A program made the position numbers and the translations under genes. From Conexibacter sp. SYSU D00693 (lineage in GTDB: Bacteria > Actinomycetota > Thermoleophilia > Solirubrobacterales > Solirubrobacteraceae), in assembly GCF_017084525.1 (NCBI RefSeq), contig NZ_CP070950.1:1240001-1304000 (forward strand): 64,000 nt of DNA, written 5' to 3'. Position 1 is the first letter of the stretch. Each line of letters begins with the position of its first letter. Below are positions 23,230-61,981 of the stretch, in pieces. The notes beneath the pieces were generated by a model. The model did no database searches. It was given only the letters and a program-made list of their open reading frames with translations, and was not told the origin of the DNA.

Positions 23230-23243
23230 TACGATGCAGGGCC

Positions 23244-38403: not shown

Positions 38404-39591
38404 TCACGCCGCCACCTGCTCGACCAGCCGGGCCGCGAGGGCCCGCTGGTGCTCGATGACCTTCTTCGTCCGGTTCCAGGCGACGACGCCGACGAGCTCG
38501 TCGCCGCGCAGCGCCTCGACGACCAGCGCCCGGCGGTCCGGCTCCTCTTCGGTGACGACGAACCGGTCGGCGGCGGACAGCAGCCCGGCGGACTTGAGCT
38601 TGACGTCGTACTGGTCCGACCAGAACGTGGGGACCGGCGCGAACGACCTGCGCTCCTCGGCCGTGGCGAGCAGGTTGCGCGCCGCAACGGGGCCCATGTC
38701 CCGGGCGATGGCCCAGTGCTCGATGGACACCGGCGCCCCGCCCGCCAAGGGCTGGGGCCAGGCGGCGACGTCCCCAGCGGCGGCCACGTCCTCGACGCCG
38801 ACCGCCAAGCACGTCGCGTCACAGACCACGGCGCCACGGTCGTCGAGCTCGAGCGCCGAGCCCGCCAGCCAGTCGGTGTTGGGCACCGAGCCGAGCGCGA
38901 CGAGGACGACGTCGGAGGCGACCGTCGCGCCGTCGCTCAGGTGCGCGAGCTGTCCCGAGCCCGCCGGCTCGAGCTCGTCGACACTGGTGCTCAGGCGCAG
39001 GTCGACCCCGTGCGCGGCGTGCAGGGCGGCCGCACGGCGGCCGACCTCCGGCCCGGTGACCGGCATCGGCTGGGAGGCCAGCTCGACGACCGTGACCTCC
39101 TCGACGCCGAGGCCGCGCAGGGTCGCCGCGACCTCGCAGCCGATGAAGCCGGCGCCCACCACCAGCACGCGGCGCGCGCGGCGAACTGCGTGACGCAGCG
39201 CCAGGGCATCGTCGAGCCCGCGCAGCGTCAGCACACCGCCGACCTCGGCGGCGACGGACGACGTGCGCGGTCGCCGTCCCGTGGCCACCAGCAGCCGGTC
39301 GTAGGGCACGGCGGTCCCGTCGGCCAGGAGCACCTCGTGCGCGTCGGCGTCGAGCTCGACGGCCGGCGCGCCGGCCTGGTGGCGGACGCCGTCCAGCGGC
39401 GGGAAGACACAGGCCTCGGGCTCCATCGTGCCGGCGAGCACCTGCTTGGACAGCGGCGGACGGTCGTACGGCGCATGGCGCTCATCGCCGACGAGCACCA
39501 CCTCGCCCGCGAACCCGTCACGCAGCAGCACGGATGCCGCGCGGTGGCCGGCCAGACCACCGCCGACGATCACGACGCGCAGCGAGCCCAC
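38404..39591 (-). CDS. Ferredoxin--NAD(P)+ reductase (BphA4/rubredoxin-reductase type)
   Basis: 395 residues. FAD fold VGGGLAG at 9-15, HAPYDRPPLSK (FAD-isoalloxazine segment), second nucleotide fold VVGAGFIGCEVA near 144-155, and the C-terminal FAD motif EDVAAAGDVAAWP. It passes electrons from NAD(P)H to ferredoxin, the natural partner of the two 3Fe-4S ferredoxins here and hence of the P450 or the membrane system. GTG start; the operator 39597-39612 lies 5 bp upstream, so the message may be nearly leaderless. First gene of the operon with AveC-family and NorD-like genes. Confidence 0.92.
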   Translation of the reverse strand: MGSLRVVIVGGGLAGHRAASVLLRDGFAGEVVLVGDERHAPYDRPPLSKQVLAGTMEPEACVFPPLDGVRHQAGAPAVELDADAHEVLLADGTAVPYDRLLVATGRRPRTSSVAAEVGGVLTLRGLDDALALRHAVRRARRVLVVGAGFIGCEVAATLRGLGVEEVTVVELASQPMPVTGPEVGRRAAALHAAHGVDLRLSTSVDELEPAGSGQLAHLSDGATVASDVVLVALGSVPNTDWLAGSALELDDRGAVVCDATCLAVGVEDVAAAGDVAAWPQPLAGGAPVSIEHWAIARDMGPVAARNLLATAEERRSFAPVPTFWSDQYDVKLKSAGLLSAADRFVVTEEEPDRRALVVEALRGDELVGVVAWNRTKKVIEHQRALAARLVEQVAA

Positions 39592-46281: not shown

Positions 46282-47621
46282 GGGCCCGGGATCGGGTTGT
46301 AGGTCAGGAGGTCGTTGAGGAACTTCGCGATCTCGCGGCACTCGGCGACCTTCCCGGCGCCCGCCGCGTCCGGGTCCAGGAAGTACGTGCGGCAGGGCAG
46401 CGTGTCGATGGCGCGCTCGCCGGCGCCCGCCGCCAGGCCGATCATGTGGGACCGGTTGTCGTAGCTGCCGGCGGCCGCCCCCAGCCCACCGAGGGTCGGG
46501 CCGATCATCGCCGACGTGGAGCGGCCGGTCACGGGGTCCTTCTTGGCGAGGTCCGGCAGGATCGTCTCGTCGAGTCGCCGGAGGCTCGGGTCGAGGTCGT
46601 CGAGCAGCGGGCCACCGTTCTGCGCGGTGGCGGCCAGCGACCGGGCGGCCGGTCGCAGCTCGCGCAGCAGCGGGCGGGCGCCGCGCAGGAGCCGGTCGGC
46701 GTCCACGACGGTCGGACGCAGGTCCGCCAGCGCGGGCGCGACCTGGGTGGCGGAGCGCCGCAGGCGGGCCAGCAGCGGGTCGGTGCCCCGCAGGGTCACG
46801 TCGACCAGCGCCATGGTGCGCCGCACCTCGGGCAGCGTGGTGGCAGCCCGCAGGATCGAGCTCTGGACGGCATCGCGGCGGCGCGCGACCACCTCGGTGA
46901 CCAGCGCACCGTCGCCGACGAGCCCGGTCAGCGAGCGGTCCTCGCGCCCGAGGTCAGACGTCAGGCGCGCGGTGTTGCGCACGAGCGCCCGCAGGTCGCC
47001 ATCGCGCTGCCCGCGCAACGTCGCCACGCCGCGGCGCAGCGTCGGGGCCGACCGCGTGAGCGTCGTCAGCGTGCGCTCGAGCTCGAGCTCGTCCTCGAGG
47101 GCCGTGGGGATCTCGCGCAGCATCGTCTTGAGGCCGCGCCGCTCACCGTCGCGCAGGTCGCTCAGGAGCGCGTCGACCTCCACGGGCCCGGTCGTGCGGG
47201 TCACCGGGATGCGCTGGCCGGGCAGCTCGCCGGCCGACGGGGTCCCGCGGTGCAGGTCGACGTAGTACGTGCCGCCCAGGACGTTGCGGGAGTCGACGGT
47301 CGCGCGGGCGTCGCGGTACAGCGGCAGGGACTCGTCGAAGACCTCGAGCGTCACCACGGCGCTGCGGCCGTCCTCCTGGAGCTCGACGTCGGCGACCCGG
47401 CCCTGGTCGACGCCGTCCACGCGCACGGGACTGCGCTTGGAGATCTGGCTCGCGTCGCGGAAGACGGCGGTCACCTCCGTGCCCTTGCGCTGCAGGGCGC
47501 GGTCCAGGAAGCCACCGAAGACGAACAGCGTCAGGACGGCGATCACTCCCACGGTGGCCGCTCCGATGCGCGAGTAGGAGCGCTCGGACAGCCCGCCTCC
47601 GACTCCGCCTCGGCGGATCAT
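46278..47621 (-). CDS. Mce/MlaD family protein (fourth of six)
   Basis: 447 residues. ATG at 47621 gives a short basic start (MIRRGGVGGG), a helix (IGAATVGVIAVLTLFVFGGF) and the Mce domain (TEVTAVFRDASQISKRSPV, VRVDGVDQGRVADVEL, NVLGGTYYVDLH). A long alpha-helical middle and a C-terminal segment with two Cys (LPCRTYFL, VAECREI) follow. ATGA overlaps on both sides mark strict operon coupling. Confidence 0.91.
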   Translation of the reverse strand: MIRRGGVGGGLSERSYSRIGAATVGVIAVLTLFVFGGFLDRALQRKGTEVTAVFRDASQISKRSPVRVDGVDQGRVADVELQEDGRSAVVTLEVFDESLPLYRDARATVDSRNVLGGTYYVDLHRGTPSAGELPGQRIPVTRTTGPVEVDALLSDLRDGERRGLKTMLREIPTALEDELELERTLTTLTRSAPTLRRGVATLRGQRDGDLRALVRNTARLTSDLGREDRSLTGLVGDGALVTEVVARRRDAVQSSILRAATTLPEVRRTMALVDVTLRGTDPLLARLRRSATQVAPALADLRPTVVDADRLLRGARPLLRELRPAARSLAATAQNGGPLLDDLDPSLRRLDETILPDLAKKDPVTGRSTSAMIGPTLGGLGAAAGSYDNRSHMIGLAAGAGERAIDTLPCRTYFLDPDAAGAGKVAECREIAKFLNDLLTYNPIPGP

Positions 47622-48961
47622 CGCGAGCCTCCCCGCGTCGGCGTCTCGATGTAGCGCTTGCCCGGCGAGTACTTGCACGGGCCGGGATGCACCTCGTCGA
47701 CGACCATCGGCGAGTCGCGCGTGATGCCCTGGATGCCGGCCGGGGTGAACGGCGGCAGGATCCGGAAGTAGTGCAGCGGCCCGATGAAGCCGTTGGGCAG
47801 CGGGTGGGTCTGGGCCCGGCCCTCGATGCCGTAGCCGAGGGCGCTGCGCCAGTTCTCGGCGAAGTTGTCCACGTCGCAGCCGTGGCGGCCCACGAGCTGC
47901 AGCGGATCGACGAGGTCGTCGAGCAGCCGCTCGCCCGGCTCGAGGACGGGGCGCAGCGAGCTCACCAGGCGCCGGGCGTCCGGGACGGCGGCCTGCGCGG
48001 TGGCCAGCAGGGCTGCGGTGCGGCGCAGCGGTCGGTCGCTGCGGTGCAGCAGCGCGGCGGTGGCGCGGAGGCCCTCCGGCGCGGCCGGCAGCGTGCGGTT
48101 GGCGGCGTCGGCCACCTCGCGGAGCGCATGCAGCAGCCGCGTGCCGGTGTCCAGGCCCGTGCGCACCCGGCCCAGCGCGGAGGGCGCCTCCTCGAGCGTC
48201 TCGCCCAGCGCCGACCGCCGCTGGACGATCGCGTCGAACGTCCTCGCGGCCGGTCCCATCGCCGCGACCTGGTCGTCCTTGCCGGACTCGAGGGCGTCGA
48301 TCGCGGAGGTGAGCGCCGGCACCAGACGCCGCGCGGCTCCCGGACGGTCGTCGACGACGCGCTCGACGACCTCGTTGAACTGCGGACCGGCGACGACGGC
48401 GTGGTCGGTCAGCCGGCTCAGCCCGCGTCCTCGGCCCAGCAGGCCGATGCCGGTCTCGTCCAGCGTCGAGGCGAGCGCGCGGCGGGTGCGCTCGTCGAAC
48501 GTGTTCAGCGCATCCGGGACGGAGTACGTCAGGGCACCCTCGTCGCCGTGGATCGTCGCGCGCTCCGGCAGCTGCTCGGTGCTGCGACCGGGCCGCAGCT
48601 CGACGTAGCGCTGGCCGAGGAGGCCAGCCGCCCGGACGAAGACCTGCGTGTCGGCGGGCAGGCGTTCGGTGTCCTCGGCGAGCTTGAGCTCGAGGTGCGC
48701 GCGCTGGTCGCGGGCCTCGACCTTCAGGACCTGGCCGACGCGCACGCCCGCGATGCGGACGTCGTTGTGGGGCTGGATGTTGCCGGGGTCGGGGACCGAG
48801 GCGAAGTACGTGTGCGACGGGACGCCCGGCACGCCGTTGGGCGCGCGCACGGCGATGATGCCGGCCAGCGCGAGGGCGCCCACCGTCACCAGACCGGCGA
48901 GCACCACGGCGTAGGGGCGCGGCCGTTCGCTTCGGCGGCTGTGGCGGCTGCGCTGGATCAT
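47618..48961 (-). CDS. Mce/MlaD family protein (third of six)
   Basis: 447 residues. A basic N-terminus (RSRHSRRSERPRP) precedes the helix (YAVVLAGLVTVGALALAGII). The Mce domain includes HTYFASVPDPGNIQPHNDV and VRIAGVRVGQVLKVEA. Long helices are followed by a C-terminal GCDVDNFAENWRSALGYG element that resembles mycobacterial Mce C-terminal segments. The helical region probably forms part of the lipid tunnel. Confidence 0.91.
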   Translation of the reverse strand: MIQRSRHSRRSERPRPYAVVLAGLVTVGALALAGIIAVRAPNGVPGVPSHTYFASVPDPGNIQPHNDVRIAGVRVGQVLKVEARDQRAHLELKLAEDTERLPADTQVFVRAAGLLGQRYVELRPGRSTEQLPERATIHGDEGALTYSVPDALNTFDERTRRALASTLDETGIGLLGRGRGLSRLTDHAVVAGPQFNEVVERVVDDRPGAARRLVPALTSAIDALESGKDDQVAAMGPAARTFDAIVQRRSALGETLEEAPSALGRVRTGLDTGTRLLHALREVADAANRTLPAAPEGLRATAALLHRSDRPLRRTAALLATAQAAVPDARRLVSSLRPVLEPGERLLDDLVDPLQLVGRHGCDVDNFAENWRSALGYGIEGRAQTHPLPNGFIGPLHYFRILPPFTPAGIQGITRDSPMVVDEVHPGPCKYSPGKRYIETPTRGGSR

Positions 48962-50409
48962 GGGCCGAGGAGGAGGTCGAGGAGGCGACGGGTGCCGTCG
49001 GTGCCCTCCGGCGCGCGCTGGCCCTGCGTGCCGCCGAGCGCGTCAGGCAGGAGGCCGCGGACGTCGTCGAGCAGCCGGTCGGCCGGCAGCAGGTCCTTGA
49101 GGGCGTCGGTGAGCCCGCGGACCGGGTCCTTCGGCGCCTCGGGACGCGCGGGCGCCGGCTCGGGCGCGGCCTCGGCCGGCGGCTCCGGGCGGCGGGGCTC
49201 CGGCTCCTCGCGGCGCGGCGCACGCGCGGCACGCTCGGCACGCCGCGTCCCGGGGTTGCCGAGCGAGTCGACGAGGGTGCGCAGCATCTCGGCGCTCAGC
49301 GTCGCTCGGCCGCGGAACACGTGGCCGAGGCCGTCGCGGCCCTGGATGGCGCGCGCCCAGCCCTCCACGAGGCCGAGGACGTCGTCGATGCTGACGTCGA
49401 GGGTCCTGGAGACGGGCGCGGCGGCCTCGACGGCGCGCACCAGCGAGCGCAACGTGGGGTCGGCCTGGCGCAGGACCGGCGTGGCGGCGCGCGCGAGCTG
49501 GGTGAGGGTCGGCGACACGGCGACCGCGCGGTCGAACGCGGGCCGGGCGGCGCGTTCGAACGGACGCAGCTGGGCCAGCGTTGCGGTGAGGGCGGGCGCG
49601 GTGTCGGCGAGCGCGCGCGCCGCGGGCTCCAGCGGGCGGGTCGTGCGCTCGAGGTCGGCCAGGAAGCGCTGCGCGCTGCGCAGGGCGCCTGGCGCCTGGC
49701 CGAGCGTCGCCTGCAGCTCCCGGCGCCGGCCGGCAGTGACCTCGACGGTGCGCCCGAGCCCGTCCAGCGCGTCCGTGAGCTGCCGGCGCTCGGCGGCCAG
49801 CGTCCCGACGTAGCTGCTGCTGCGCTGCACGAGGCGCTCGAGCGTCGCGTTGTCGTGCACCACCTCGTCGACGAGCCGGCGCGCGGAGCGCAGGTCGGTG
49901 GGCAGCAGCTGCAGCGTGCGGCTGAACTCGCGCTTGCGGCCGGCAACGGCCACCCCGAGCTCGTTGAGGACGACCTGCAGACGTGCGCGGGTGTCGCCGT
50001 CGAGCGCGGAGAGCACCTCGTCGAGGTCCGTGGGGGTCGTGACCCGCGAGGCGGGGATCCGGGCCCCGCCGCCCAGCTCGCGCCCGCGACGCCCGGGCTG
50101 CAGGACCATGTACTTCGAGCCCAGCAGGTTGGCGGTGACGATCTCGACGCGCGCGTCCTCGCGCACCGGTCCCGCCTTCTCGCGATCCAGCGACAGCGTC
50201 GCCTCCACGACGTCGCCCTCGCGCAGGCGGATCTCGTCGATCCGCCCCACGGGGACCCCGCCGACCTTGACCTCCGAGCCGGAGCGCAGGCCGTTGGCGC
50301 TGGGCAGGTCGACGCGCAGCTGGTGACGCTCATCGCCCGTCAGCGCCACGGCGACGAGCGCCACGGCGACCACGCCGGTGGCCACGGCGAGCATGCGACC
50401 GAGGCTCAT
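48958..50409 (-). CDS. Mce/MlaD family protein with Pro-rich C-terminus (second of six)
   Basis: 483 residues. Helix MLAVATGVVAVALVAVAL, Mce domain (HQLRVDLPSANGLRSGSEV, VKVGGVPVGRIDEI, NLLGSKYMVLQPG), helical region, then a ~70-residue low-complexity stretch rich in Pro, Glu, Arg and Ala (PEPPAEAAPEPAPARPEAP) and a short L/D-rich end. Such tails in MceC/MceD proteins may cross or bind the cell wall. ATG at 50409, overlapping the stop of the first mce gene. Confidence 0.9.
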   Translation of the reverse strand: MSLGRMLAVATGVVAVALVAVALTGDERHQLRVDLPSANGLRSGSEVKVGGVPVGRIDEIRLREGDVVEATLSLDREKAGPVREDARVEIVTANLLGSKYMVLQPGRRGRELGGGARIPASRVTTPTDLDEVLSALDGDTRARLQVVLNELGVAVAGRKREFSRTLQLLPTDLRSARRLVDEVVHDNATLERLVQRSSSYVGTLAAERRQLTDALDGLGRTVEVTAGRRRELQATLGQAPGALRSAQRFLADLERTTRPLEPAARALADTAPALTATLAQLRPFERAARPAFDRAVAVSPTLTQLARAATPVLRQADPTLRSLVRAVEAAAPVSRTLDVSIDDVLGLVEGWARAIQGRDGLGHVFRGRATLSAEMLRTLVDSLGNPGTRRAERAARAPRREEPEPRRPEPPAEAAPEPAPARPEAPKDPVRGLTDALKDLLPADRLLDDVRGLLPDALGGTQGQRAPEGTDGTRRLLDLLLGP

Positions 50410-51707
50410 CGCGCCTCCGGGTCCTTCGACGGGTCGAGCGTCTCCGGGCCCAGCCCGCACTGCGGCTGGAACCACGGCTGGCCGGAGGAGATGCCCGGCG
50501 GACGCGGGAAGGCGTAGTCCAGCTGCGGGAAGGAGGTGAGCAGCTCGGCCGAGTTCTGCGGCGTGGTCAGCCCGTAGGGGTAGACGATGAAGTTGCCGCG
50601 GAACATCTTGTCGTGGCCGTCCCCCAGCCGGTTCATGCTCGTCCAGGTCGAGGCGAACCCGGCGATCTCGGGGGCGAACGGCCGCACGCACTGGCCCTGC
50701 TCGTCGAGCTCCCGGCCGATGCGCTCGATGCGCGGCATGGTCCTCGTCGCCTTCTCGAGCAGCGGGTCGAGGTCCGGAGCAGCCCGGCGGAGGGTCGCCA
50801 GCGTCGTGCGAGTGTCAGGCCCGACGTCCTGGACGGTGGCCAGCGTGCGGTTGAGCGGCGAGGCGATGCGCCGCAGCTCCGCCACGCCGGGCGCGAGCCG
50901 CTTGGCCAGGTCGTTGGCCGACAGGAGCGTCGCGTCGGCGTGGGCGAGCGTGCGCGTCGTGCGGTCCAGCGTCGACGGCAGGTGCCCGAGCGTGTCGCGC
51001 AGGCGGCCGGCGTGGCGGCCGAAGGCGTCGAGCGTCCCGGCCGCGCCGCTCACCAGCCGGCCGATCCCCGGGTTGGCGCGCTGGATGGCGTGCACCGCGC
51101 GGTCGGTCTGGCCGAGCAGGACGTCGAGGGCCTGCTCGTCGGCGCCGAGCTCGTCGAGCACGGCGTTGACCTCGTCGAGGGTGGGCGGCGCCGCCTCGAG
51201 CGCGGGCGCCAGGTCGTCGGAGGCCCGCTCGACGGTCGGACCGCTCTCGTCGAGGAAGCGCTTGAGGTCGCGGCGCGTCCGTGGGTCGAAGTCGCCGAGC
51301 ACCTCGTCGACCTCGACGTTGGTGGTCACGTCGTCGACCGGGATCGTCGCGCCGTCGACCAGCGGCGCGCCCGCGCGGGCGGGGGCGACGAGGTCGACGC
51401 GCCGGTTCGTGTAGGCGATCGTGCTGCCCCAGCGCAGGCGCGCCTCGGTCCCGCGTGGGAGCGGCCACACGCGGTCGTCGTCGATCCGCAGCTCGACGCG
51501 GGCGCGGCCGGCGGGCGTCGGCTCGGCCTCGACGACCCTGCCGACGACCACGCCGGCGACCCGCACTTCGGCGCCCGCGGTGAGGAACCGCGCCTGTGGC
51601 GCCTCGAACACCAGCCGTCCGGCCCCGTCGGAACCCGACCCGGCGACGACCACGGCGGTCGCACCGGCGGCGACGAGGGTGAGGGCGAGGACTGCGACGC
51701 GCCGCAC
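50406..51707 (-). CDS. Mce/MlaD family protein (first of six)
   Basis: 433 residues. An N-terminal helix (VAVLALTLVAAGATAVVVAG) and the Mce domain (GRLVFEAPQARFLTAGAEV, VRVAGVVVGRVVEAEP) are followed by long helices and a C-terminal segment with aromatic residues and two Cys (GQCVRPFAPEI, WFQPQCGLGP). It starts 1 bp after the permease gene, so permeases and substrate-binding subunits form one transcription unit. Confidence 0.91.
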   Translation of the reverse strand: MRRVAVLALTLVAAGATAVVVAGSGSDGAGRLVFEAPQARFLTAGAEVRVAGVVVGRVVEAEPTPAGRARVELRIDDDRVWPLPRGTEARLRWGSTIAYTNRRVDLVAPARAGAPLVDGATIPVDDVTTNVEVDEVLGDFDPRTRRDLKRFLDESGPTVERASDDLAPALEAAPPTLDEVNAVLDELGADEQALDVLLGQTDRAVHAIQRANPGIGRLVSGAAGTLDAFGRHAGRLRDTLGHLPSTLDRTTRTLAHADATLLSANDLAKRLAPGVAELRRIASPLNRTLATVQDVGPDTRTTLATLRRAAPDLDPLLEKATRTMPRIERIGRELDEQGQCVRPFAPEIAGFASTWTSMNRLGDGHDKMFRGNFIVYPYGLTTPQNSAELLTSFPQLDYAFPRPPGISSGQPWFQPQCGLGPETLDPSKDPEAR

Positions 51708-51708
51708 G

Positions 51709-52533
51709 TCAGCCGCCGATCGGGAGCCCGAGGTCCTTGCCGTAGGCGCCGAACACCATCAGGCCGAGGACGATGTGGATGAGGACGAGGTTGACGACGA
51801 GCGATCGCGCGACCGCGACGCCCACCCCGGCGGGCCCGCCCTTGGCGCGCGTGCCGTAGTAGCAGGAGACCAGCGTGATGATCGTCCCGACGACCAGCAC
51901 CGAGATCAGGGCGAAGGCCTGGTCGAAGGGCGACTGGTTGCCCCAGTTGTAGCGGAAGAACGTCTCCGAGCTGACGGCCCGGACGATGACCACCGAGTTG
52001 ATGTAGGCGCCGATCGTCCCGCCCACGAGCGAGACCGCCGTCGCGATCGGCGCGAAGAGGATGGTCGCCGCCACGCGCGTCCCGACGACGTACTTCTGCA
52101 CCGAGACGCCCTCGGACTCGAAGCCGTCGAGCTCCTCGCTGACCTTCATGGCGCCGATCTCGCCCACGAGGCCGCAGCCGACCTTCGCCGCGAAGGCGTA
52201 GGCGAACATGAGCGCGGCGGTGAACCGCGCGTTCGTGACCCCCGGGACGAGGCCGATGTAGTCGGCCGCGCCGGCCGCCTTGAGGAAGTAGTAGCCGAAG
52301 CTCGTCGCGCTGAAGCCGATGGCCGCCGACATCAGCGCGATGAACCCGGTGCTGCCCCGCACGAGCAGCCCGGTCTGGCGCAGGACCTCCGAGAAGTAGC
52401 GCGCCGACTGCGGGACGGCGCGCAGCGCCCCCAGGGAGAAGACGACGAGCTCGCCGAACTCGGTGAAGGCCGTCTCGCGCGAGTGCTTGATCGGCGGTTC
52501 CGCGGGCGCGGTGTCGAGGGGACGGACGGCCAC
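51709..52533 (-). CDS. MlaE/YrbE permease, B-type
   Basis: 274 residues, about five to six helices. It has the MlaE signature region around KVGCGLVGEIGAMKVSEELD and FAPIATAVSLVGGTIGAY. It pairs with the A-type permease to form the membrane core of the Mce importer and is powered by the MceG-like ATPase (41241-42056). Three bp separate it from the A-type gene. Confidence 0.93.
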   Translation of the reverse strand: MAVRPLDTAPAEPPIKHSRETAFTEFGELVVFSLGALRAVPQSARYFSEVLRQTGLLVRGSTGFIALMSAAIGFSATSFGYYFLKAAGAADYIGLVPGVTNARFTAALMFAYAFAAKVGCGLVGEIGAMKVSEELDGFESEGVSVQKYVVGTRVAATILFAPIATAVSLVGGTIGAYINSVVIVRAVSSETFFRYNWGNQSPFDQAFALISVLVVGTIITLVSCYYGTRAKGGPAGVGVAVARSLVVNLVLIHIVLGLMVFGAYGKDLGLPIGG

Positions 52534-52536
52534 CGG

Positions 52537-53379
52537 TCAGCCTCGCAGGACGGTGACGTCCGGGAAGTTGGGCAGGAACACCGCGTTCCACAGGCAGTTG
52601 AGGATCCAGATGCCCAGGAACGTGATGAGCACGGCCTGGTTCACCGCCCGGCCGACGCCCTCGGCCCCGCCGCTGGCGTTCATGCCCTTGGCGCAGCAGA
52701 CGACGCCCACGAAGAGCCCGGTGACCATGAGACGCAAGACGAACGACGCCATGTCGGCGGGGTTGATCGTCGCCCGGGCGCTGTCGAGGTAGTCGGCCCA
52801 GCTCGCGTTCGGCAGCAGGGTCGGTGAGAGCAGGAAGATCGTGCCGATGCCGACGAAGAGCCCGAGGAGCCCGAGCAGCGGTGCCATGAGCGTCAGCGCC
52901 ACGATCCGCGGGACCACGAGCGTGCGCATCGAGTCGATGCCCAGCACGGTCAGCGCGTCGAGCTCCTCGCGGATCTTGCGGGCGCCGAGGTCGGCCGTCA
53001 TCGCGCTGCCGACGACGCCGGCGAACACCATCGCGCTCACCCAGTAGGCGGTCTCCCGCGGCCAGCCGACCACCATGCCGGCGCCCGTGCGGTCGATCGT
53101 CCCCAGCGTGCCGAGGATGCCGGCGATCAGCGTGATGACGCCGCCGACGGCGAAGAAGCCGATGGACAGCACCAGCGGTCCCGCGCAGCGCCGGGCGGTG
53201 ATGGAGCACTGGGTCAGCAGCTCCCCGCGCCAGGAGAACGGCGGCGTGCAAGCCACACGCGTGGCGCGCAGCAGGAGGGCGCCCATCTGGCCCGCGGCCT
53301 CCAGGCGGCCGTAGGCAGGCAGCCGGGGCAGGCGGTCCTCGAAGGACGCCGGCGCCGCCTTGGTGGGCAGGGACCCCAT
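52537..53379 (-). CDS. MlaE/YrbE permease, A-type
   Basis: 280 residues, helical membrane protein with MlaE motifs: GVVGSAMTADLGARKIREELDAL and PRIVALTLMAPLLGLLGLF. It is the first gene of the eight-gene permease/mce operon. The 79-bp upstream region, shared with the end of the luxR gene, holds a perfect inverted repeat (53432-53451) and an overlapping palindrome (53447-53462), both candidates for control of the importer. Confidence 0.93.
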   Translation of the reverse strand: MGSLPTKAAPASFEDRLPRLPAYGRLEAAGQMGALLLRATRVACTPPFSWRGELLTQCSITARRCAGPLVLSIGFFAVGGVITLIAGILGTLGTIDRTGAGMVVGWPRETAYWVSAMVFAGVVGSAMTADLGARKIREELDALTVLGIDSMRTLVVPRIVALTLMAPLLGLLGLFVGIGTIFLLSPTLLPNASWADYLDSARATINPADMASFVLRLMVTGLFVGVVCCAKGMNASGGAEGVGRAVNQAVLITFLGIWILNCLWNAVFLPNFPDVTVLRG

Positions 53380-54450: not shown

Positions 54451-55218
54451 ATGTACGACGCCGACCAGGTGCTGCAGCGCATCGACGACCACACCGTGAT
54501 CGTCCTGGCGCTCGGCGGCCTCGCGCTGGTGTGCAACTACGTGTTCTTCGGTGAGGCGGCAAGACTGGCCCGGCGCGACCGCTGCGTCCCCTTCCTGCTG
54601 CTGTGCTGCGCGTTCTGGTTCCCGCACGACGGCAACTACCTGCTCGACGCGCAGCTGTGGTTCGACGACTACGACCACTGGTTCCCCAAGCTCTTCTGGG
54701 TCGCCCTGGTGTTCACGTTCACGTTCGAGTGCGTGTACCTCTCCCAGACCCTGCGCTACGGACGCCGCGAGTGGGCCCCGGCGCTCACGCAGGCGCAGTT
54801 CCGGCTCTGGGTCGTGGCCACGGTCGCCCTCGGCGTGGTGCTGTGGAAGGTCGCCAAGGACGCGCTGGAGGACGACCTGTACCTCGCCGCGTTCATGGTC
54901 ACGGCGGTGTGGGCGCTGCTGTCGGGCTACCGGCTGGCGCTGCGCCGGGGCTCTCGCCGCGGGCAGTCCCCGCTGCAGTGGGGCGCCTACACGGGGATGG
55001 TCAGCTCGTACGGGGCGCTGTCGATCTTCGTCTTCGGCGGCAGCTTCGCCCGGTGGCCGTGGGTGGCGATGTGCGTCATGGCCGTCGTCGGCGGCGCCGG
55101 GCTGACGTGGTGGCTGGCGCGGGCGCCGGCGTGGGAGCCGGCGCCCGCCGCCGATCAGGCCTTCACGAGCTCGACAGGGAGCTCGTACACGCCGCGCGAG
55201 TACGCATCGCGCACGTAG
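54451..55218 (+). CDS. Polytopic membrane protein of unknown function, His/Asp-rich
   Basis: 255 residues with about six or seven helices. Between helices two and three lies a striking polar/aromatic stretch, FWFPHDGNYLLDAQLW then FDDYDHWFPKLFW, with H59, D60, D66, D72, D73, D75 and H76, and an acidic residue follows within the next helix (FTFECVYLSQ). Such clusters of His and Asp at the membrane surface could bind metal. A regulon operator precedes it. Its 3' end overlaps the P450 gene by 64 bp. The family is not recognised; the AveC-family protein at 37200 has a similarly placed aromatic/polar stretch. Confidence 0.75.
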   Translation: MYDADQVLQRIDDHTVIVLALGGLALVCNYVFFGEAARLARRDRCVPFLLLCCAFWFPHDGNYLLDAQLWFDDYDHWFPKLFWVALVFTFTFECVYLSQTLRYGRREWAPALTQAQFRLWVVATVALGVVLWKVAKDALEDDLYLAAFMVTAVWALLSGYRLALRRGSRRGQSPLQWGAYTGMVSSYGALSIFVFGGSFARWPWVAMCVMAVVGGAGLTWWLARAPAWEPAPAADQAFTSSTGSSYTPREYASRT

Positions 55219-56390
55219 CTGATCTCGCCCGCCGGCCGGATATCCTTCGTGCGCTGCAGCAGCTCCTCGAGCAGGATCTTGATCTCGAGGGCGGCGACGT
55301 GCTTGCCCAGGCAGGAATGCGGCCCGCGGCCGAAGCTCACGTGCGGGTTCGGATTGCGCGAGAGGTCGAGCTCCTCCGGCGCGTCGAAGGCCTCCGGGTC
55401 GAAGTTGCCCGCCGCGAAGAGCATGGCCACGTGATCGCCCTCGTGCAGCTCGACGCCGTGCAGCTCGACGCCGCGCGTGACCGTCCGGCACAGGTGGGTG
55501 AACGGGCTGGCGATCCGCACGAACTCCTGGGCGACCGTCATCGGCACGTCGTCGGCGCGCTCGCGCAGCCAGTCCATCTGGTCGGGCCGGCGCAGGAGCT
55601 CGTGCATCCCGTGGCCCAGCGACGTGCGGGTGCTCTCCGCGGCGCCGCTGGCCAGCAGCGCGACGTTGCCGCGCACCTCACCCTCGGGCATGCCGGCCTC
55701 CGCGATCTTCGACATGACGTTCTCGCCCGGCTCCCGACGGCGCAGGGACTCGAGCTCGAGGGCGTAGGCGTAGAGGTCGGTGATCGCCTTGCCGACCGCT
55801 TCGAAGCTCGGCGTGATCCGCGTGTCGAACGGCGCCGCGAACTGGTCGACCCAGTGGAAGAACTTGGGTCGGTCGTCCTCCGGGACGCCGAGCACGTCGC
55901 CCAGGGCCTGCATCGGCATCACGTGAGCGATCTCGTCGATGAAGTTGAAGGGCCCGTCGATCTGGAGCGCCTGCTCGACGACCTCCACGGCGTAGCGGCG
56001 GAACCGCCCCTCGAGGTCCTTGAGGACCTTCGGGGTGAACCCCTTGCTGACCACGCGGCGGTTCTCGCGGTGGCGATCGCCGTCCATCGTCAGCATCGCG
56101 GGCGCGCCGATGGCCTCGCCCAACGGGGCGAAGGCCCAGAAGTTCACGGGGCCGCGGTCGGCGGCGAAGGTCGCGGGGTCCTTGTCGATGCGCACGATGT
56201 CCTCGTGGCGACTGACCACCCAGACGCGGTCGAGCAGCAGCGGGTCCTCGAACTCGTGCAGGCACACGGGCTCGACCTCGCGCAGGTAGCGGTAGGCGTC
56301 GAGCGGCAGCCCGAACGTCGTCGGGTCGCCGTTGGCGTAGGTGTCGGGGTCCAGGACCCCGAGCTCTGCCTGGGACATCTTGGTGGCCAT
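55155..56390 (-). CDS. Cytochrome P450
   Basis: 411 residues. Heme ligand C360 in FGRGPHSCLGKH, K-helix E-F-V-R (EFVRIASPFTHLCR), and I-helix region SGAAESTRTS in which the usual acid-Thr pair is Glu-Ser-Thr. NFDPEAFDAPEELDLSRNPNPH fits the actinobacterial steroid/fatty-acid group (CYP124/125/142-like), by eye. It hydroxylates a hydrophobic compound using electrons from 3Fe-4S ferredoxin. An operator lies 54 bp upstream. It converges with a 64-bp overlap on the membrane protein gene. Confidence 0.94.
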   Translation of the reverse strand: MATKMSQAELGVLDPDTYANGDPTTFGLPLDAYRYLREVEPVCLHEFEDPLLLDRVWVVSRHEDIVRIDKDPATFAADRGPVNFWAFAPLGEAIGAPAMLTMDGDRHRENRRVVSKGFTPKVLKDLEGRFRRYAVEVVEQALQIDGPFNFIDEIAHVMPMQALGDVLGVPEDDRPKFFHWVDQFAAPFDTRITPSFEAVGKAITDLYAYALELESLRRREPGENVMSKIAEAGMPEGEVRGNVALLASGAAESTRTSLGHGMHELLRRPDQMDWLRERADDVPMTVAQEFVRIASPFTHLCRTVTRGVELHGVELHEGDHVAMLFAAGNFDPEAFDAPEELDLSRNPNPHVSFGRGPHSCLGKHVAALEIKILLEELLQRTKDIRPAGEISYVRDAYSRGVYELPVELVKA

Positions 56391-56443: not shown

Positions 56444-56459
56444 GTGAACGCTCGTTCGC
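56444..56459. promoter_or_regulatory. Regulon operator, GTGAACGCTCGTTCGC
   Basis: Perfect core, 54 bp upstream of the P450 start. Confidence 0.76.
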
Positions 56460-56492: not shown

Positions 56493-56508
56493 GCTAACGA
56501 TCGTTTAT
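56493..56508. promoter_or_regulatory. Regulon operator, GCTAACGATCGTTTAT
   Basis: Perfect core, 38 bp before the GTG of the first small membrane protein of the NorD2/NorQ2 operon. The centre is 49 bp from the P450 operator, so the divergent promoters are controlled separately. Confidence 0.76.
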
Positions 56509-56546: not shown

Positions 56547-56807
56547 GTGTTCGAGGAGCTGTCCCCCGATCGCGAGAAGGCGATCAAGGTCTACACCGCG
56601 CTGTCGGTGCTGTTCTTCGTCGTGATCATCGGCGCGGGGTTCGTCCTCGCCGCTGACCGCGGCTACGGCGCCGGCCCGTGGGACACCGACACGGTGCACA
56701 GCTGCTACACGCCGGGCGGGCCCCACTACGTGCCCGACAAGCCCGTCAGCGAGCAGCCGTGTCCGAGCCCGACGTCCGCCGGCCTCGTGGCCCGACAGAA
56801 GGACTGA
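56547..56807 (+). CDS. Small single-pass membrane protein with Cys pair
   Basis: 86 residues. A charged N-terminal helix (FEELSPDREKAIKVYTALS) is followed by one membrane helix (VLFFVVIIGAGFVLAA) and an outside tail containing D-R-G-Y-G-A-G-P-W-D-T-D, an H and two Cys (HSCYTPGG, EQPCPSPT) that may form a disulfide or bind metal. GTG start with GGCGGAGGTCGAG upstream. First gene of a tightly packed operon of four membrane proteins and the NorD/NorQ pair. No family recognised. Confidence 0.8.
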   Translation: MFEELSPDREKAIKVYTALSVLFFVVIIGAGFVLAADRGYGAGPWDTDTVHSCYTPGGPHYVPDKPVSEQPCPSPTSAGLVARQKD

Positions 56808-56809
56808 CG

Positions 56810-56950
56810 ATGCACCTGACGGACCTCACCGCGGCCGTGATGGCCGCGGGTGTGTGGCACGACACCTGGAAGATCGCGACCTCCGTGGCGGTCCTGTTCT
56901 TCCTGCTGTGGGCGTGGAACTGGATGATGAGCCACTTCGGGACGTTCTGA
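56810..56950 (+). CDS. 46-residue single-pass membrane protein
   Basis: 46 residues: a short N-terminus, one helix (IATSVAVLFFLLWAWNWMM) and H/W residues on both sides (GVWHDTWK, MSHFGTF). It starts 2 bp after the previous stop and its stop overlaps the next start (TGATG). The tight packing and a hydrophobic helix support a true gene despite its size. It resembles the tiny accessory subunits of respiratory or oxygenase complexes in general form only. Confidence 0.75.
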   Translation: MHLTDLTAAVMAAGVWHDTWKIATSVAVLFFLLWAWNWMMSHFGTF

Positions 56951-57159
56951 TGGCCGACGAGCACCTGCCGGCCGAGCCGCGCAACCCGATCGCCGTCGGG
57001 ACCCTGCGCCAGGAGATCCGCGAGATGCCGGTCATCCAGCGCTGGGTGGTCTACACGTCGGGCTTCTGCCTGACGTTCCTGCTCCTCCAGTGCTTCCTGG
57101 TGATGCCGATCATCCTCATCAAGTACGGCTGGGGCTACAACGTCGGAGACGGCTCCTGA
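56950..57159 (+). CDS. Small single-pass membrane protein
   Basis: 69 residues. A soluble N-terminus of ~30 residues (ADEHLPAEPRNPIAVGTLR, then QEIREMPVIQRW) precedes one long helix (FCLTFLLLQCFLVMPIILI) and a short outside end (KYGWGYNVGDGS). Coupled by TGATG to genes on both sides. Third of three consecutive one-helix proteins, pointing to a multi-subunit membrane complex with the next, larger protein. Confidence 0.78.
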   Translation: MADEHLPAEPRNPIAVGTLRQEIREMPVIQRWVVYTSGFCLTFLLLQCFLVMPIILIKYGWGYNVGDGS

Positions 57160-57872
57160 TGGCGATCGCGCTGCCTCGCCGCGAGACGCGCGTCACGTCG
57201 TCGCCCCCTCCGGGCTCCGGCGGCGAGAGCACGCTGATGAAGCGCGCTGACCGTCTGCTGTTCATCGGCATCGTGCTGGGCGGCTCGTGGATCCTGGGGC
57301 CGATCGCCATCCCGTTCCTCATCGGCGCCTGCGTGCTGATGAACCGTGCCCAGAAGCGCGGCGAGCTCTACCGGCCCTGGTCGGTGACCATCATCGGCAC
57401 GTTCGTGCTGATCGACGCGTCGGTGAACTACTTCGGCTGGGGCACCGACCTGCTCTGGTCGCACGGCACCGAGCCCATGAAGACGCTGTGGCCCGGCTAC
57501 GGCAAGCTCGTCGACGGGGCGTACTACATCGACTACAACGCGGGGCCCTACGGCGGGCTGTCCAACAACGGCGAGAAGACGCTGGAGTTCTACGGCGTCC
57601 TGGTCATGTACCCGATGCGGATCATGGCGGCCTGGGCCTTCCTGAAGATGAAGCGCTGGGGTCTGCAGATGATGATCGTGACGTCCTGGATGTACGTCGC
57701 GTTCTGGGTGGCCTACGCGTCCAACGTCTACGCCGACTTCGATGCCCGCGCCGGTGCGTCGGACTTCGGCAACCTCGGGCTCTGGTTCATCCTCGTGGTC
57801 TACGCCACGCCGTTCGTGATCATGCCGTTCCTCTACACGGTCAATCGCGAGCAGTTCGCCGACGTGCGATGA
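57159..57872 (+). CDS. Polytopic membrane protein of unknown function
   Basis: 237 residues with about five helices after a ~30-residue soluble start. Outside or interface segments are rich in aromatic and acidic residues: NYFGWGTDLLWSHGTEPMK, YGKLVDGAYYIDYNAGPYGG, NNGEKTLEFYG, SNVYADFDARAGASDFG. D/H/E residues in these loops could hold a metal or polar substrate. It is probably the main membrane subunit of the complex formed with the three small proteins before it. It overlaps the norD-like start (ATGA). I do not recognise the family; it has the size but not the visible ligand pattern of PmoC/AmoC. Confidence 0.75.
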   Translation: MAIALPRRETRVTSSPPPGSGGESTLMKRADRLLFIGIVLGGSWILGPIAIPFLIGACVLMNRAQKRGELYRPWSVTIIGTFVLIDASVNYFGWGTDLLWSHGTEPMKTLWPGYGKLVDGAYYIDYNAGPYGGLSNNGEKTLEFYGVLVMYPMRIMAAWAFLKMKRWGLQMMIVTSWMYVAFWVAYASNVYADFDARAGASDFGNLGLWFILVVYATPFVIMPFLYTVNREQFADVR

Positions 57873-59353
57873 CCGTCGCCCCGCGGGCGACCGCCGAGCG
57901 CTACGTCACGGTCCTGACGGCCGCCCTCTCGGGCGGTCGTCGCGCTCGTGGCGTGCTCGACACCGGCGTGGGCCGGACCTACCTGACGGACGGTCGCGTC
58001 GTCACCGTGCCGTTCCCGTTCGAGCTGCAGCGCCGGCCGCTCACCTGCGCCCTGGCGCTCCAGGCCTCGCCGACCAAGGAGGCCGTCGCGCAGCTGCCGT
58101 GGACCGCCTTCCGCGGCCGCCAGCAGCTCGCCCTGGCCTGGGTGGAGGGCGAGATGGCCGCTCGCTGGGCCGCCGACCGGTGGCCGGGCCTGCGGGCGCA
58201 GCTCGAGCAGGAGCTGCCCGGCCTCGACCTCGACGGCCCCGTCGTGCACGAGCCCGGCGAGCTCGCCGCGCTCGCGGCCGCGCGCGCACGCGACCTGCGG
58301 CTCGCCGACCCGCCCGCGATCCTGGGCCGGCTCCCCGCACCGCGGGTCCGCGTCGGCGGGCCGCTGCGGCGGACCTTCATCGCCACGCGGTGGTCCAGCC
58401 GCCACCGCGCCCGACGGCAGGGCTCCCTCCCGGTCCCGGTCTCGGGGCCCGGGACAGAGCCGGTGCTCGACCCCGGGGCGCCCGGCACGATCGAGGCCCT
58501 GGAGGGACGGTCGGGCCACGAGCTCGGCATCCCGTACCCCGAGTGGGACGCCACCGCGGGCCGCCACCGCCCCGACCACGTGCGGGTGCTCGAGCTCCCC
58601 TGGCCGGCCTCACGCGAGCGCCACGCCGTCGCGCCGCTGCGCGTCCGCGCCCGCCCGGCCCGCACCCTGCGGCGCGGCCAGGAGCAGGGCGACCTGGACA
58701 TCGACGCCGTCGTGCGCTGGCGCTGCGACCTGCTCGCCGGCACCGCCACCGGCGCGCCGCGCCTGCACCAGACCCTGCTCCCCGGCCGCGCCCCGATCGC
58801 GTGGGCACTGCTCGTCGACGCCTCGGCCTCGGCGAGCCTCGACGGCGGACGCCTGCTGGTCACCGCGCTCTCGCACGCCGAGTCGGTCGCCGCGGGCCTG
58901 ACCCAGGACGGCCACCACGTCGCGGTCTTCGCCTTCCGCAGCCGCGCGCGCGAGCGCGTCGAGGTGCACGTCCTCCAGCGCTTCGAGGACCGGCCGCGCC
59001 CGCTGACGCGGTCCCTGCGCCCCGGGGGCTACACGCGCATGGGCGGCGCGCTTCGCCATGTGGGTGGGCGCGTCGCCGCACAGCCGGGCACGGGCCACGT
59101 CCTGCTCTCCCTGGGCGACGCGGTGCCCTACGACGAGGGCTACGGCGGGCGCTACGCGCGAGAGGACGTCCGCCACGCCGTGCAGGAGCTGCGCGCCCGG
59201 GGCGTCACGGTCCGCCACGCGGCGCTTGCGCCGGGCGACGCGGCATCGCTCACCCAGATGTTCGGCGCTCGCGGCTGGGCCCCCGCGACGTCGCGCGACC
59301 AGATCCGGGCCCTCATCGAGGACACGATCAGCGACGTGGAGGCAGACCGTTGA
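57869..59353 (+). CDS. VWA-domain protein of the NorD/CbbO type (copy 2)
   Basis: 494 residues. The C-terminal VWA domain has a canonical metal site D317-A-S-A-S321, the Thr loop GGYTRMGGALRH, and the NorD mark GDAVPYDEGYGGRYAREDVRHAVQE. The middle has P-Y-P-E-W-D-A-T-A-G-R-H-R-P-D-H, equivalent to H-P-E-W-D-W-Q-A-G-R-Y-K-P-D-W in the NorD copy at 35487. It is shorter than copy 1 in the acidic linker. It overlaps the upstream membrane gene and the downstream norQ copy by 4 bp each, the classic NorD/NorQ pairing. Confidence 0.9.
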   Translation: MTVAPRATAERYVTVLTAALSGGRRARGVLDTGVGRTYLTDGRVVTVPFPFELQRRPLTCALALQASPTKEAVAQLPWTAFRGRQQLALAWVEGEMAARWAADRWPGLRAQLEQELPGLDLDGPVVHEPGELAALAAARARDLRLADPPAILGRLPAPRVRVGGPLRRTFIATRWSSRHRARRQGSLPVPVSGPGTEPVLDPGAPGTIEALEGRSGHELGIPYPEWDATAGRHRPDHVRVLELPWPASRERHAVAPLRVRARPARTLRRGQEQGDLDIDAVVRWRCDLLAGTATGAPRLHQTLLPGRAPIAWALLVDASASASLDGGRLLVTALSHAESVAAGLTQDGHHVAVFAFRSRARERVEVHVLQRFEDRPRPLTRSLRPGGYTRMGGALRHVGGRVAAQPGTGHVLLSLGDAVPYDEGYGGRYAREDVRHAVQELRARGVTVRHAALAPGDAASLTQMFGARGWAPATSRDQIRALIEDTISDVEADR

Positions 59354-60153
59354 CCGACATCACGACCGACGCCGCGGCCTACGTGGGCGCGGGCGGAGAG
59401 CTCGACCTGCTCACCGTCGCCGCCGAGCAGGGCGCCCCGGTGCTCCTGCTCGGACCGACCGGCTGCGGCAAGACCGTGCTCGTCGAGGCGCTGGCCCGCG
59501 ACCTCGGGCGCGAGCTCGTGACCGTCACCTGCCACGACGACCTCACGACCGCCGACCTCGTCGGCCGCCACCTCATCCGCGGCGGCGACGTCGTCTGGCA
59601 GGACGGGCCGCTCACCACCGCGATGCGCGACGGTGCGGTCTGCTATCTCGACGAGGTCATCGAGGCGCGGGCCGACACGCTGGCGGTGCTGCACTCGGTC
59701 GCCGACCACCGGCGCACGCTCTACGTCGACCGCCTCGACGCCGAGGTCGTCGCGCACCCGGACTTCCTGCTGGCGGCCTCCTACAACCCGCGCGGCCCCG
59801 GGGCGGCCAAGGAGCTCAAGACCGCCCTGCGCCAGCGCTTCGTCACCGTGTCGCTCGACTACCTGCCGGCCGACGAGGAGACGGGGGTGGTCGCCGACCG
59901 GGGCGGCGTGGACCGCGACGTGGCACGTCGCCTCGTGGCCGGCGCCGGGCTGCTGCGCGAGGCGGCCACGCGTGACCTCCACGAGCGCTTCGACCCACCG
60001 TCGACCCGGGCGCTCGTGACCGCCGCGCGCCTGGTGCGCGGTGGGGCGGCGTTCGACGTGGCCTTCGGCGCCTGCGTCCTCGGGACGCTCGAGGTCGATC
60101 CGGGTACGCGCCAGGCGCTGGCCGAGCTCGTGGACGCCCAGCAGGTCCGGTGA
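59350..60153 (+). CDS. MoxR-type AAA+ ATPase of the NorQ/CbbQ family (copy 2)
   Basis: 267 residues, TTG start overlapping the norD stop (TTGA). Walker A GPTGCGKT at 35-42, Walker B AVCYLDEV, TCHDDLTTADLVGRHLI, ASYNPRGPG, LKTALRQRF. About half of the positions match copy 1 (20509-21321) by eye. With the NorD partner it would form a hexameric motor that matures the membrane complex encoded just upstream. GTGA overlap with the next gene keeps the phosphotransferase in the same operon. Confidence 0.91.
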   Translation: MTDITTDAAAYVGAGGELDLLTVAAEQGAPVLLLGPTGCGKTVLVEALARDLGRELVTVTCHDDLTTADLVGRHLIRGGDVVWQDGPLTTAMRDGAVCYLDEVIEARADTLAVLHSVADHRRTLYVDRLDAEVVAHPDFLLAASYNPRGPGAAKELKTALRQRFVTVSLDYLPADEETGVVADRGGVDRDVARRLVAGAGLLREAATRDLHERFDPPSTRALVTAARLVRGGAAFDVAFGACVLGTLEVDPGTRQALAELVDAQQVR

Positions 60154-61370
60154 GCAGCGCCATGGACCCCCGTCTCGAGCTCGCGGCGCTCACCGGCCGC
60201 ATCGCCTTCCACGTGGCCCGTGAGCGGCACGCGCGGCCGCGACCCACCACGCTGCGCGAGGTCCCTCCCTCGCCCGAGCACCTCACCGAGCGATGGCTCA
60301 CGCAGGCGCTGTGCGACGGCGTGCCGGGCGCCGCGGTCGAGCGCTTCGACCTCGGTCCGCGCAACGACGGCACGTCGGCCCGGCGCAGCCTGCGGGTCCA
60401 CCTCAACGAGGCCGGTCGGGAGGCTGGCCTGGCCGAGCACCTCTTCACGAAGTCCAGCCCGAGCTTCACCACCCGCCTGGTCGCCGCGAGTGCTGGGCTC
60501 GGGCGCATCGAGTCGGCCTTCTACGCCCAGATGCGCCCCGAGCTGGACATCGAGGCGCCGGTGACCCGCTACTCGGCCTTCGACCCGGTGTCCTTCCGCC
60601 AGCTGCTCCTGGTCGACGACGTGACGGTGACCCGCGACGCGACCTTCGGCACGGTGCTGACGCGGACGCTCAGCCGCGAGCAGGCCGAGCAGGTCGTCGA
60701 CACGCTGGCGGCGCTGCACGCCCGCTACTGGGAAGGCCCCATCGTCCGGCGCTTCGGCACGTGGCTGGTCTCCTCGTACGAGTGGATGGCGCAGCTCAAC
60801 GTGACGATCAACGCGCCCAAGCGCATGCTCGTGGGCTTCGACCGCGGCCGCGAGGTCATCCCGCCAGAGCTGCACCGCCGCCGCCACGAGGTGCCGGCCG
60901 CCCTGATGCGCTCGCTGGAGATCAACGTCAGCGGTCCCCAGACCGTCCTGCACGGCGACGTCCATCCCGGCAACTGGTACGTCACCGGCGACGGACGCAT
61001 GGGTCTCTACGACTGGCAGTGCATGGTCCGCGGCGGCTGGGCACGCGACCTCGCCTACGCCCTGAGCTCGCACCTGACCGTCGAGCAACGACGCGACTGG
61101 GAGCGCGACCTCGTCGCGCGCCACGGCGAGCGCCTGGCGGAGGCGGGCGTCACCCCGCCCGACCCCGAAGCGGCCTTGCTGGCCTACCGCCAGCAGATGC
61201 TGCACGCGATGTTCATGTGGCTCGGGACCATCGGGCGCCACCGGCTCCAGCCCGACATGCAGCCGGCGGACATCACCCTGGAGACGGTCCGCCGCACCTG
61301 CCAGGCGGCGGCCGACCTCGAGGCGCTGGACGCCGTCGACCGGCAGCCCGCGCGGGCGGTGGCCGTCTAG
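60150..61370 (+). CDS. Aminoglycoside-phosphotransferase-like kinase
   Basis: 406 residues. Protein-kinase-like fold of the APH/choline-kinase group: catalytic loop H268-G-D-V-H-P-G-N and metal-binding D288 in LYDWQ, plus an N-terminal lobe with FTKSSPS where the ATP-binding Lys lies. Relatives in actinobacterial lipid clusters phosphorylate small alcohols or CoA-like substrates. GTG start in overlap with the norQ-like gene, so it is under the same operator (56493). Its stop and that of the convergent tetR gene share a CTAG. It could phosphorylate an alcohol made by the membrane enzyme; this is inference. Confidence 0.85.
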   Translation: MSSAMDPRLELAALTGRIAFHVARERHARPRPTTLREVPPSPEHLTERWLTQALCDGVPGAAVERFDLGPRNDGTSARRSLRVHLNEAGREAGLAEHLFTKSSPSFTTRLVAASAGLGRIESAFYAQMRPELDIEAPVTRYSAFDPVSFRQLLLVDDVTVTRDATFGTVLTRTLSREQAEQVVDTLAALHARYWEGPIVRRFGTWLVSSYEWMAQLNVTINAPKRMLVGFDRGREVIPPELHRRRHEVPAALMRSLEINVSGPQTVLHGDVHPGNWYVTGDGRMGLYDWQCMVRGGWARDLAYALSSHLTVEQRRDWERDLVARHGERLAEAGVTPPDPEAALLAYRQQMLHAMFMWLGTIGRHRLQPDMQPADITLETVRRTCQAAADLEALDAVDRQPARAVAV

Positions 61371-61981
61371 GCGGACGCGGGCGCGGGCGGCGCGAAGGAC
61401 CCGTCGCGCAGGCCGCGGACGAGGTCGACGACCGTGCCTGCCGTCGCGGCGGCCATGCGGCGCTCGCGCTCGGGCTCCGACGGGGGCCAGCCGACGACCG
61501 AGTTGAGGATGCCCAGCGCCATGTGGGTGACGCTGCGCACGTCCTCCTCCGACCAGCCGGGCAGGCAGCGCGACAGGCACCCGCGCACGGTGTCGACGTA
61601 GGCGGCCTGGCGCAGCCGGAGGCGGCGCCGGTAGGTCTGCGACAGCGAGCGCTGGTCGTAGATCCACACGCCGGCGAGGCGCCGTTCGGCCAGGAGGTAG
61701 CCCGTGTGGCCCTCGGCGATCCGTCGCAGGTCGACCCACGGGTCCTCGTCGCGCCCGCCGGTGGCCGAGACGATGCCGTCGAGCACCTGCTCGAGGAGGG
61801 TGGCGAGGATCTCGTCCTTGCCGGCGAAGTGCCGGTAGATCCCCGGTCCCGTCATGCCGGCCCGACGGCCGATCTCGTCCACGCCCACCGCGGCGTAGCC
61901 GCTCTGGCTGAACAGCTGCGCGGCGACCTCGAGGATCTTGCGCTGGCGCGCGAGCCCGCGCGCGGACGGCGCCGACGCCAT
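61367..61981 (-). CDS. TetR-family regulator, paralogue of the one at 30511
   Basis: 204 residues. Its helix-turn-helix AVGVDEIGRRAGMTGPGIYRHFAGKDEIL nearly matches that of the TetR protein at 30511-31176, and the ligand domain aligns too (ERRLAGVWIYDQRSLSQTYRRRLRLRQ vs a similar R-R-R-H-S-R-R region). Both may read the same AACG-NN-CGTT operator. ATG at 61981 is used; a GTG at 61990 overlaps the stop of the upstream monooxygenase gene (GTGA). It is co-transcribed with the Baeyer-Villiger monooxygenase and hence under the operators at 63931/63964. Confidence 0.88.
   Translation of the reverse strand: MASAPSARGLARQRKILEVAAQLFSQSGYAAVGVDEIGRRAGMTGPGIYRHFAGKDEILATLLEQVLDGIVSATGGRDEDPWVDLRRIAEGHTGYLLAERRLAGVWIYDQRSLSQTYRRRLRLRQAAYVDTVRGCLSRCLPGWSEEDVRSVTHMALGILNSVVGWPPSEPERERRMAAATAGTVVDLVRGLRDGSFAPPAPASA

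Follow-up and report, generated by a model that had tools for sequence, protein, structure and literature searches.

A conserved four-part membrane protein module in actinobacteria and its probable NorQ/NorD chaperone pair

Chaperone pairs that combine a MoxR-class AAA+ ATPase with a VWA protein have few known clients. Two systems resemble the present one: the CbbQ/CbbO Rubisco activase, in which the enzyme client is encoded nearby, and the norCB-QD system, in which the client is a membrane complex encoded next to the chaperones. In Paracoccus, the membrane enzyme cNOR depends on both NorQ and NorD for insertion of its non-haem iron FeB; the VWA/MIDAS site of NorD is the proposed contact for acidic residues exposed by NorB on its cytoplasmic face, and specificity has been suggested to reside in the N-terminal region of NorD (PMC9976466). 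The module described here adds to these a conserved client that lends itself to testing and whose kind has not been studied before. It is found in many soil actinobacteria, mycobacteria, nocardiae and gordoniae among them, and is often duplicated with different partners.

The locus lies in a window of 64,000 nucleotides, the whole stretch of DNA that was analysed. Computed reading frames and overlaps place seven tightly packed genes at 56547-61370, with overlaps of 1-4 bases at the P2/P3, P3/P4, P4/NorD, NorD/NorQ and NorQ/kinase junctions. This is the packing given in the preliminary description, and its coordinates were reproduced. The features of the locus are listed below.

55155-56390, minus strand: cytochrome P450, divergent, with a common operator region; associated, outside the complex
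56446-56457, no strand: operator site GAACGCTCGTTC, in the promoter region between the divergent P450 and P1 genes
56495-56506, no strand: operator site TAACGATCGTTT, 41 bp before P1
56547-56807, plus strand: P1, 86 aa; GTG start with GGAGG upstream; one helix and a tail with two Cys
56810-56950, plus strand: P2, 46 aa; one helix; s1 counterpart, C-terminal ..NWMMSHFGTF
56950-57159, plus strand: P3, 69 aa, with one helix that corresponds to the helix of s3
57159-57872, plus strand: P4, polytopic membrane protein of 237 aa and core subunit, with a weak likeness to EBP/EXPERA
57869-59353, plus strand: NorD subtype, 494 aa; VWA domain with DASAS motif; distinctive N-terminal half
59350-60153, plus strand: NorQ, 267 aa, TTG start; MoxR-class AAA+ ATPase with GPTGCGKT and CbbQ_C
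60150-61370, plus strand: APH / ecdysteroid-kinase-like phosphotransferase, 406 aa; Pfam match
61370-61981, minus strand: candidate regulator of the TetR family, its gene convergent with that of the kinase

The first three genes had been described as encoding one-helix proteins of 86, 46 and 69 residues; their frames were confirmed, and one-helix partners recur in the relatives. NorD and NorQ directly follow P4 in overlapping frames, as had been claimed, and domain and sequence matches confirm both identities. P4 itself had been taken for a five-helix protein, whereas structural models give about six membrane-length helices. In a Pfam scan the kinase has an APH match and a marginal ecdysteroid-kinase-like (EcKL) match. 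A further gene at 54451-55218 (+), which overlaps the end of the P450 gene, encodes a membrane protein (about 255 aa) that contains a W/D/H-rich segment and has no Pfam match.

P4 belongs to a family without assigned function, and by sequence neither it nor the small proteins have a characterised relative in the libraries and literature searched, the coverage of which was partial. No paper on the four-part module was found in the literature searched. That none of the four membrane proteins could be recognised, as first reported, therefore holds as regards characterised relatives, although P4 is weakly EBP-like (EXPERA). P1-P3 have no match in Pfam, NCBIfam or PHROGs; P4 has no match among solved structures by sequence or among viral contigs. 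Relatives of P4 were found in 8 of 396 genomes of the phylum, the window genome included; the other seven are all members of a single family (f30), and P4 is duplicated in six of them, with the copies 3-4 kb apart. From 450 candidate stretches, a profile scan of a genome collection identified 312 P4 relatives. Of the best 80 of these, 79 loci were retained, a sample that leans to close relatives; all come from Mycobacterium (in the wide sense), Nocardia, Gordonia, Rhodococcus, Williamsia and Aldersonia, at about 37-43% identity to the window P4. Within the GTDB family of the mycobacterial matches, P4 is present in 13 of 151 sampled genomes. Among plasmids, P4 was found on one, from M. branderi. 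In the window's own class P4 occurs in only one of 399 genomes, that of the window, and it is absent from four other genomes of the genus, so that it was probably gained by transfer.

Three small partners of P4 are defined by profiles built from short frames beside P4 in mycobacterial, Nocardia and Gordonia loci. The first, s1, has about 33 aa and ends in WYWxxSNIGTF (85 of 86 P4 loci); s2 has about 41 aa and one helix (84 of 86); and s3 has about 140 aa, with a helix and a tail carrying two conserved Cys (84 of 86). The gene order is fixed, being TetR-P4-s1-NorD-NorQ-s2-P4-s3 in 41 of the 86 loci, with s1-s2-P4-s3 alone in 14, and NorD and NorQ are both present inside the s1-s2-P4-s3 gene set in 69. 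Since three one-helix proteins and P4, usually with NorD/NorQ, recur in fixed order across 86 loci, their grouping goes beyond chance. The small proteins are real, constant partners of P4, and the s1-s2-P4-s3 module of four parts is well supported. The order of structural genes followed by chaperones, emphasised in the preliminary description, is found in the window, but in the relatives NorD/NorQ are usually located between s1 and s2. In loci of Gordonia and Nocardia, a gene similar to the window kinase comes after s3. When the s1 profile is compared with 435 window ORFs and 3000 shuffles, P2 scores highest, aligning to the very C-terminus, and P3 is the best match to the s3 profile among the window ORFs, with one of 3000 shuffles scoring higher. 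P1 has no significant match to the s2 or s3 profile; its identification as the s2 counterpart was not upheld by the s2 profile, and it possibly occupies the place of s2 by elimination only.

In P4, some 30 residues of polar, acidic or aromatic character are invariant or nearly so, including D86, N90, D97, H102, D119, Y122, E139, R154, E231 and D235. Only one His is invariant in P4, and none in s1. The C-terminal acidic motif N-R-E-x-F-x-D is invariant in the family. In 27 loci with a P4 pair, position 143 is Glu in every upstream copy (27/27) and Val in 26 of the 27 downstream copies, and several further columns also separate the two sets of paralogues, so that the paired copies may form unequal dimers. 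The single P4 of the window has Glu at this position. A catalytic role for E143 was considered and rejected, because most single-copy clusters without local NorDQ lack this Glu, having mostly Ile or Val instead, and the residue is thus not essential to the P4 family.

The window NorQ is nearest to the NorQ of denitrification. It has AAA_5 and CbbQ_C domains in a Pfam scan, with Walker motifs present. Among solved structures of the NorQ/CbbQ type, NorQ matches it best (218 bits, against 187-190 bits for CbbQ), Midasin chains outscoring NorQ only through summed AAA domains. The window NorQ scores 52% to a NorCB-linked NorQ, and its closest plasmid relatives are members of NorCB-NorQ-NorD operons, which fits the comparison with norCB-QD made at the outset. 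NorD has a weak VWA match in the Pfam scan and, in its C-terminal half, shares 32% identity with an established NorD (272 residues). The alignment is confined to residues 220-471, such that the VWA half is shared, whereas the window protein is shorter and its N-terminal half is distinct and unaligned. The operon also differs from norCB-QD in that NorB and NorC are absent and P4 is not a haem-copper oxidase homologue, having no match to the COX1 domain PF00115 in the Pfam scan; two COX1-family genes (oxidase or NorB) are located far from the operon in the window genome. From CbbQ/CbbO it differs in that the client here is a set of membrane proteins and in that solved CbbQ structures match less well than NorQ.

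The tie between P4 and this chaperone pair was followed by searching one mycobacterial NorD against the same 396 genomes as P4. The NorD subtype, at full or nearly full length, was found in exactly the eight genomes that have P4, with an identity to the query of 38% in the window genome and 65-100% in the other seven. The remaining NorD matches cover approximately the C-terminal 200-300 residues at about 100 bits or less, and two genomes of the same family without P4 (G150 and G377) have generic NorD only. Moreover, all 13 of the tested genomes without NorDQ at the fetched P4 locus carry the full-length NorD subtype elsewhere. A dedicated client is what one would expect of a NorD subtype that has a distinct N-terminal half and follows P4 from genome to genome, and by these sequence comparisons the tie of P4 to NorQD is well supported. 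Together, the conserved gene order, the co-occurrence of NorD subtype and P4, and the 13 of 13 genomes lend strong support to the view that the four membrane proteins would form one complex that is a client of NorD/NorQ. This part of the original claim of a client enzyme stands, whereas an enzyme with a metal centre is something that we infer. The N-R-E-x-F-x-D end of P4 is a candidate NorD docking site. It is very improbable that the pair instead serves another co-regulated protein, such as the P450 or an RPE65-type oxygenase: P450s are indeed frequent neighbours of the module, and a second NorQ is found beside an RPE65-type oxygenase in the window, yet the NorD subtype tracks P4 exactly, and P450s vary in presence and place while NorDQ sits inside the s1-s2-P4-s3 set (69/86).

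The sole Pfam match of P4 is a weak one to EBP (PF05241; E=0.0015, 19.3 bits, the cut-off being 25.7), and it is found in one of 103 family members, below the curated cut-off. AlphaFold models of the window P4 (mean pLDDT 75.5) and of a Gordonia P4 (78.1) both have about six membrane-length helices, and in both the loop near residues 110-140 is uncertain. D119, Y122 and N127, all invariant, fall within this loop, and E139 comes after it. In second-look structural alignments (VIA), EBP entries rank third and fourth for the window model (Z 9.3, 157 aligned residues) and first and second for the Gordonia model (Z 10.2 and 10.1, with the next unrelated row at 8.8), values of about 10 being within the chance range for helical bundles. 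In addition, D86-x3-N90 in TM3 and D119-x2-Y122 resemble positions identified by EBP mutagenesis (PMC4263179), and one genome paper annotates mycobacterial proteins, possibly of the P4 family, as emopamil-binding (PMC4818103). The weak Pfam match, the structural ranks and the EBP-like placing of some acidic residues make it plausible, though not established, that P4 belongs to the EXPERA superfamily (sterol isomerase, TMEM97, TM6SF2).

From this resemblance comes the leading rival to a metal-dependent enzyme, namely that P4 is an EXPERA-type isomerase which, like EBP, mediates a metal-free double-bond shift in a sterol- or terpenoid-like substrate, with NorQD merely assembling the complex or removing inhibitors, as CbbQO does. 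The profile match, the structural ranks, the two motifs and the earlier annotation all speak for such an isomerase. We nevertheless regard it as unlikely, given the sub-threshold match in a single family member, Z scores in the chance range and the lack of any match at E<1 for either model with Foldseek alone. An hhalign comparison of P4 with two bacterial TMEM97-like EXPERA proteins, in itself a weak test, found no homology. EBP, moreover, requires neither chaperone nor small subunits, whereas P4 has constant small partners and NorQD, as well as an extra N-terminal helix pair. TMEM97-like EXPERA proteins above the Pfam cut-off do occur in actinobacteria (L107 1321-1842 and L108 1300-1839), and are rare in the phylum (3 of 296 genomes).

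The operon is embedded in a catabolic setting. The palindromic operator GAACGATCGTTC has 16 sites in the window, from 13321 to 63977; it is strongly enriched, a related 11-base pattern giving 32 strand-matches in this stretch where 2.2 would be expected. The exact 10-mer core of the palindrome, AACGATCGTT, has 8 copies in the 4.43 Mb genome, 7 of them inside the window. Operator sites precede genes for an aldehyde dehydrogenase, an RPE65-type oxygenase, several acyl-CoA dehydrogenases, an acyl-CoA ligase, a ferredoxin reductase and a flavin (Baeyer-Villiger-type) monooxygenase. The sharing of this motif by the operon and the catabolic genes is well supported, and, as judged from the motif's distribution, GAACGATCGTTC is the operator of a catabolic regulon nearly confined to a 50 kb island. 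The TetR protein is the candidate regulator. The island also carries an mce-type uptake operon (43631-53379, minus strand), which encodes two MlaE permeases and MlaD proteins of a lipid uptake system. In the relatives, recurrent genes near the module encode P450s, SDRs, diaminopentanoate-dehydrogenase-like proteins and amidohydrolases, while the M. branderi plasmid copy is located within a cluster for beta-oxidation and alcohol/aldehyde oxidation, its P4 locus adjoining GMC oxidoreductase, aldehyde dehydrogenase, Rieske and acyl-CoA genes. The operator-linked catabolic genes, the mce operon and the neighbours in relatives and in M. branderi point to hydrophobic-compound catabolism as the most likely role of the module. 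A link to mpdB/mpdC (MPD/tert-butanol), suggested by the M. branderi pair of GMC oxidoreductase and aldehyde dehydrogenase, was not retained, as the passages of the paper that were consulted do not mention the complex.

The same mce operon, together with the fact that every subunit is a membrane protein, would suit a transporter or channel for hydrophobic substrates, the gating or assembly of which is controlled by NorQD. Such a role seems distinctly improbable in view of the invariant acidic and aromatic residues in P4, the intimate tie to a metalloenzyme-type chaperone and the absence of transporter similarity in Pfam and NCBIfam.

The explanation that we prefer, with a probability of roughly one half, is a membrane enzyme complex that acts early in the catabolism of a terpenoid- or steroid-like compound and is matured by its dedicated NorQD. 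P4 and three one-helix proteins (P2 as s1, P3 as s3 and probably P1 as s2) would form the integral membrane complex. NorQ, as an AAA+ hexamer, and the dedicated NorD subtype would dock on the immature complex via the NorD VWA site, plausibly at the acidic C-terminal motif of P4, and would use ATP to open it, allowing a cofactor, most likely non-haem iron, to be inserted. The mature complex would then oxidise or isomerise, early in the pathway, a terpenoid- or steroid-like compound that is soluble in the membrane. The product would pass to enzymes under the same regulation, namely the P450, the Baeyer-Villiger-type monooxygenase, the aldehyde dehydrogenase, the acyl-CoA ligase and the acyl-CoA dehydrogenases. 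Consistent with this preferred explanation, the nearest NorQ relatives serve NorB, an iron-containing membrane enzyme, and a metal-dependent membrane enzyme is the best reading of the analysis, though unproven. Several points count against it. A histidine-rich iron site like that of FeB is not evident in P4 or s1, and with a single invariant His in P4 and none in s1 a carboxylate-rich site would be needed. MoxR/VWA pairs also act without metal insertion, as does CbbQO on Rubisco, and a genuine relationship to EBP would point to an isomerase that works without a cofactor. Finally, P1 has no detectable counterpart, and NorDQ is absent nearby in 14 loci, though not from the genome as a whole. A more specific proposal, which we advance tentatively, is that the module may be a new class of multi-subunit membrane oxidoreductase, with one or two small EXPERA-like polytopic subunits and three single-helix subunits, whose carboxylate-rich non-haem metal site is inserted by its own NorQ/NorD and which initiates the degradation of terpenoid- or steroid-like compounds in actinobacteria. 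If the module is a metalloenzyme, it would provide a new entry route into the degradation of hydrophobic natural products or pollutants.

Other chaperone genes of this type are present in the window. A second NorD-type VWA protein (35487-37196, minus strand) abuts an AveC-like (PF17198) membrane protein (37200-38837, minus strand). Generic NorD is found beside genes for AveC-like proteins of this spirocyclase family in G000, G038, G050, G055, G074 and G096, its matches lying within about 1-3 kb in the last five, and this recurrence in the window and five genomes suggests that AveC-like proteins are also NorD clients. AveC-like proteins are, like P4, polytopic membrane proteins in similar contexts, but the NorD subtype is different and homology to P4 is unsupported: P4 has no Pfam match to PF17198 at E up to 1, hhalign gives a probability of 6% over 20 columns, and a seemingly common D-x3-N motif disappeared in a clean alignment. 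With a dedicated NorD subtype for P4 and a generic one beside AveC-like genes, the client choice of NorD is directly testable. A second NorQ/CbbQ-type ATPase (20509-21492, minus strand; CbbQ_C 90 bits) is encoded 26 bp from the RPE65-type carotenoid oxygenase (21518-23617, minus strand), with operator sites of the GAACGATCGTTC regulon. RPE65-type carotenoid oxygenases are a family of non-haem iron enzymes, and the two proteins are possibly an iron-insertion pair. At 13651-14343 (minus strand) there is a COX3-like protein, perhaps NorE-like; the next gene (13358-13690) encodes a small membrane protein, and on a Thiothrix plasmid genes like these two adjoin NorQ and NorD.
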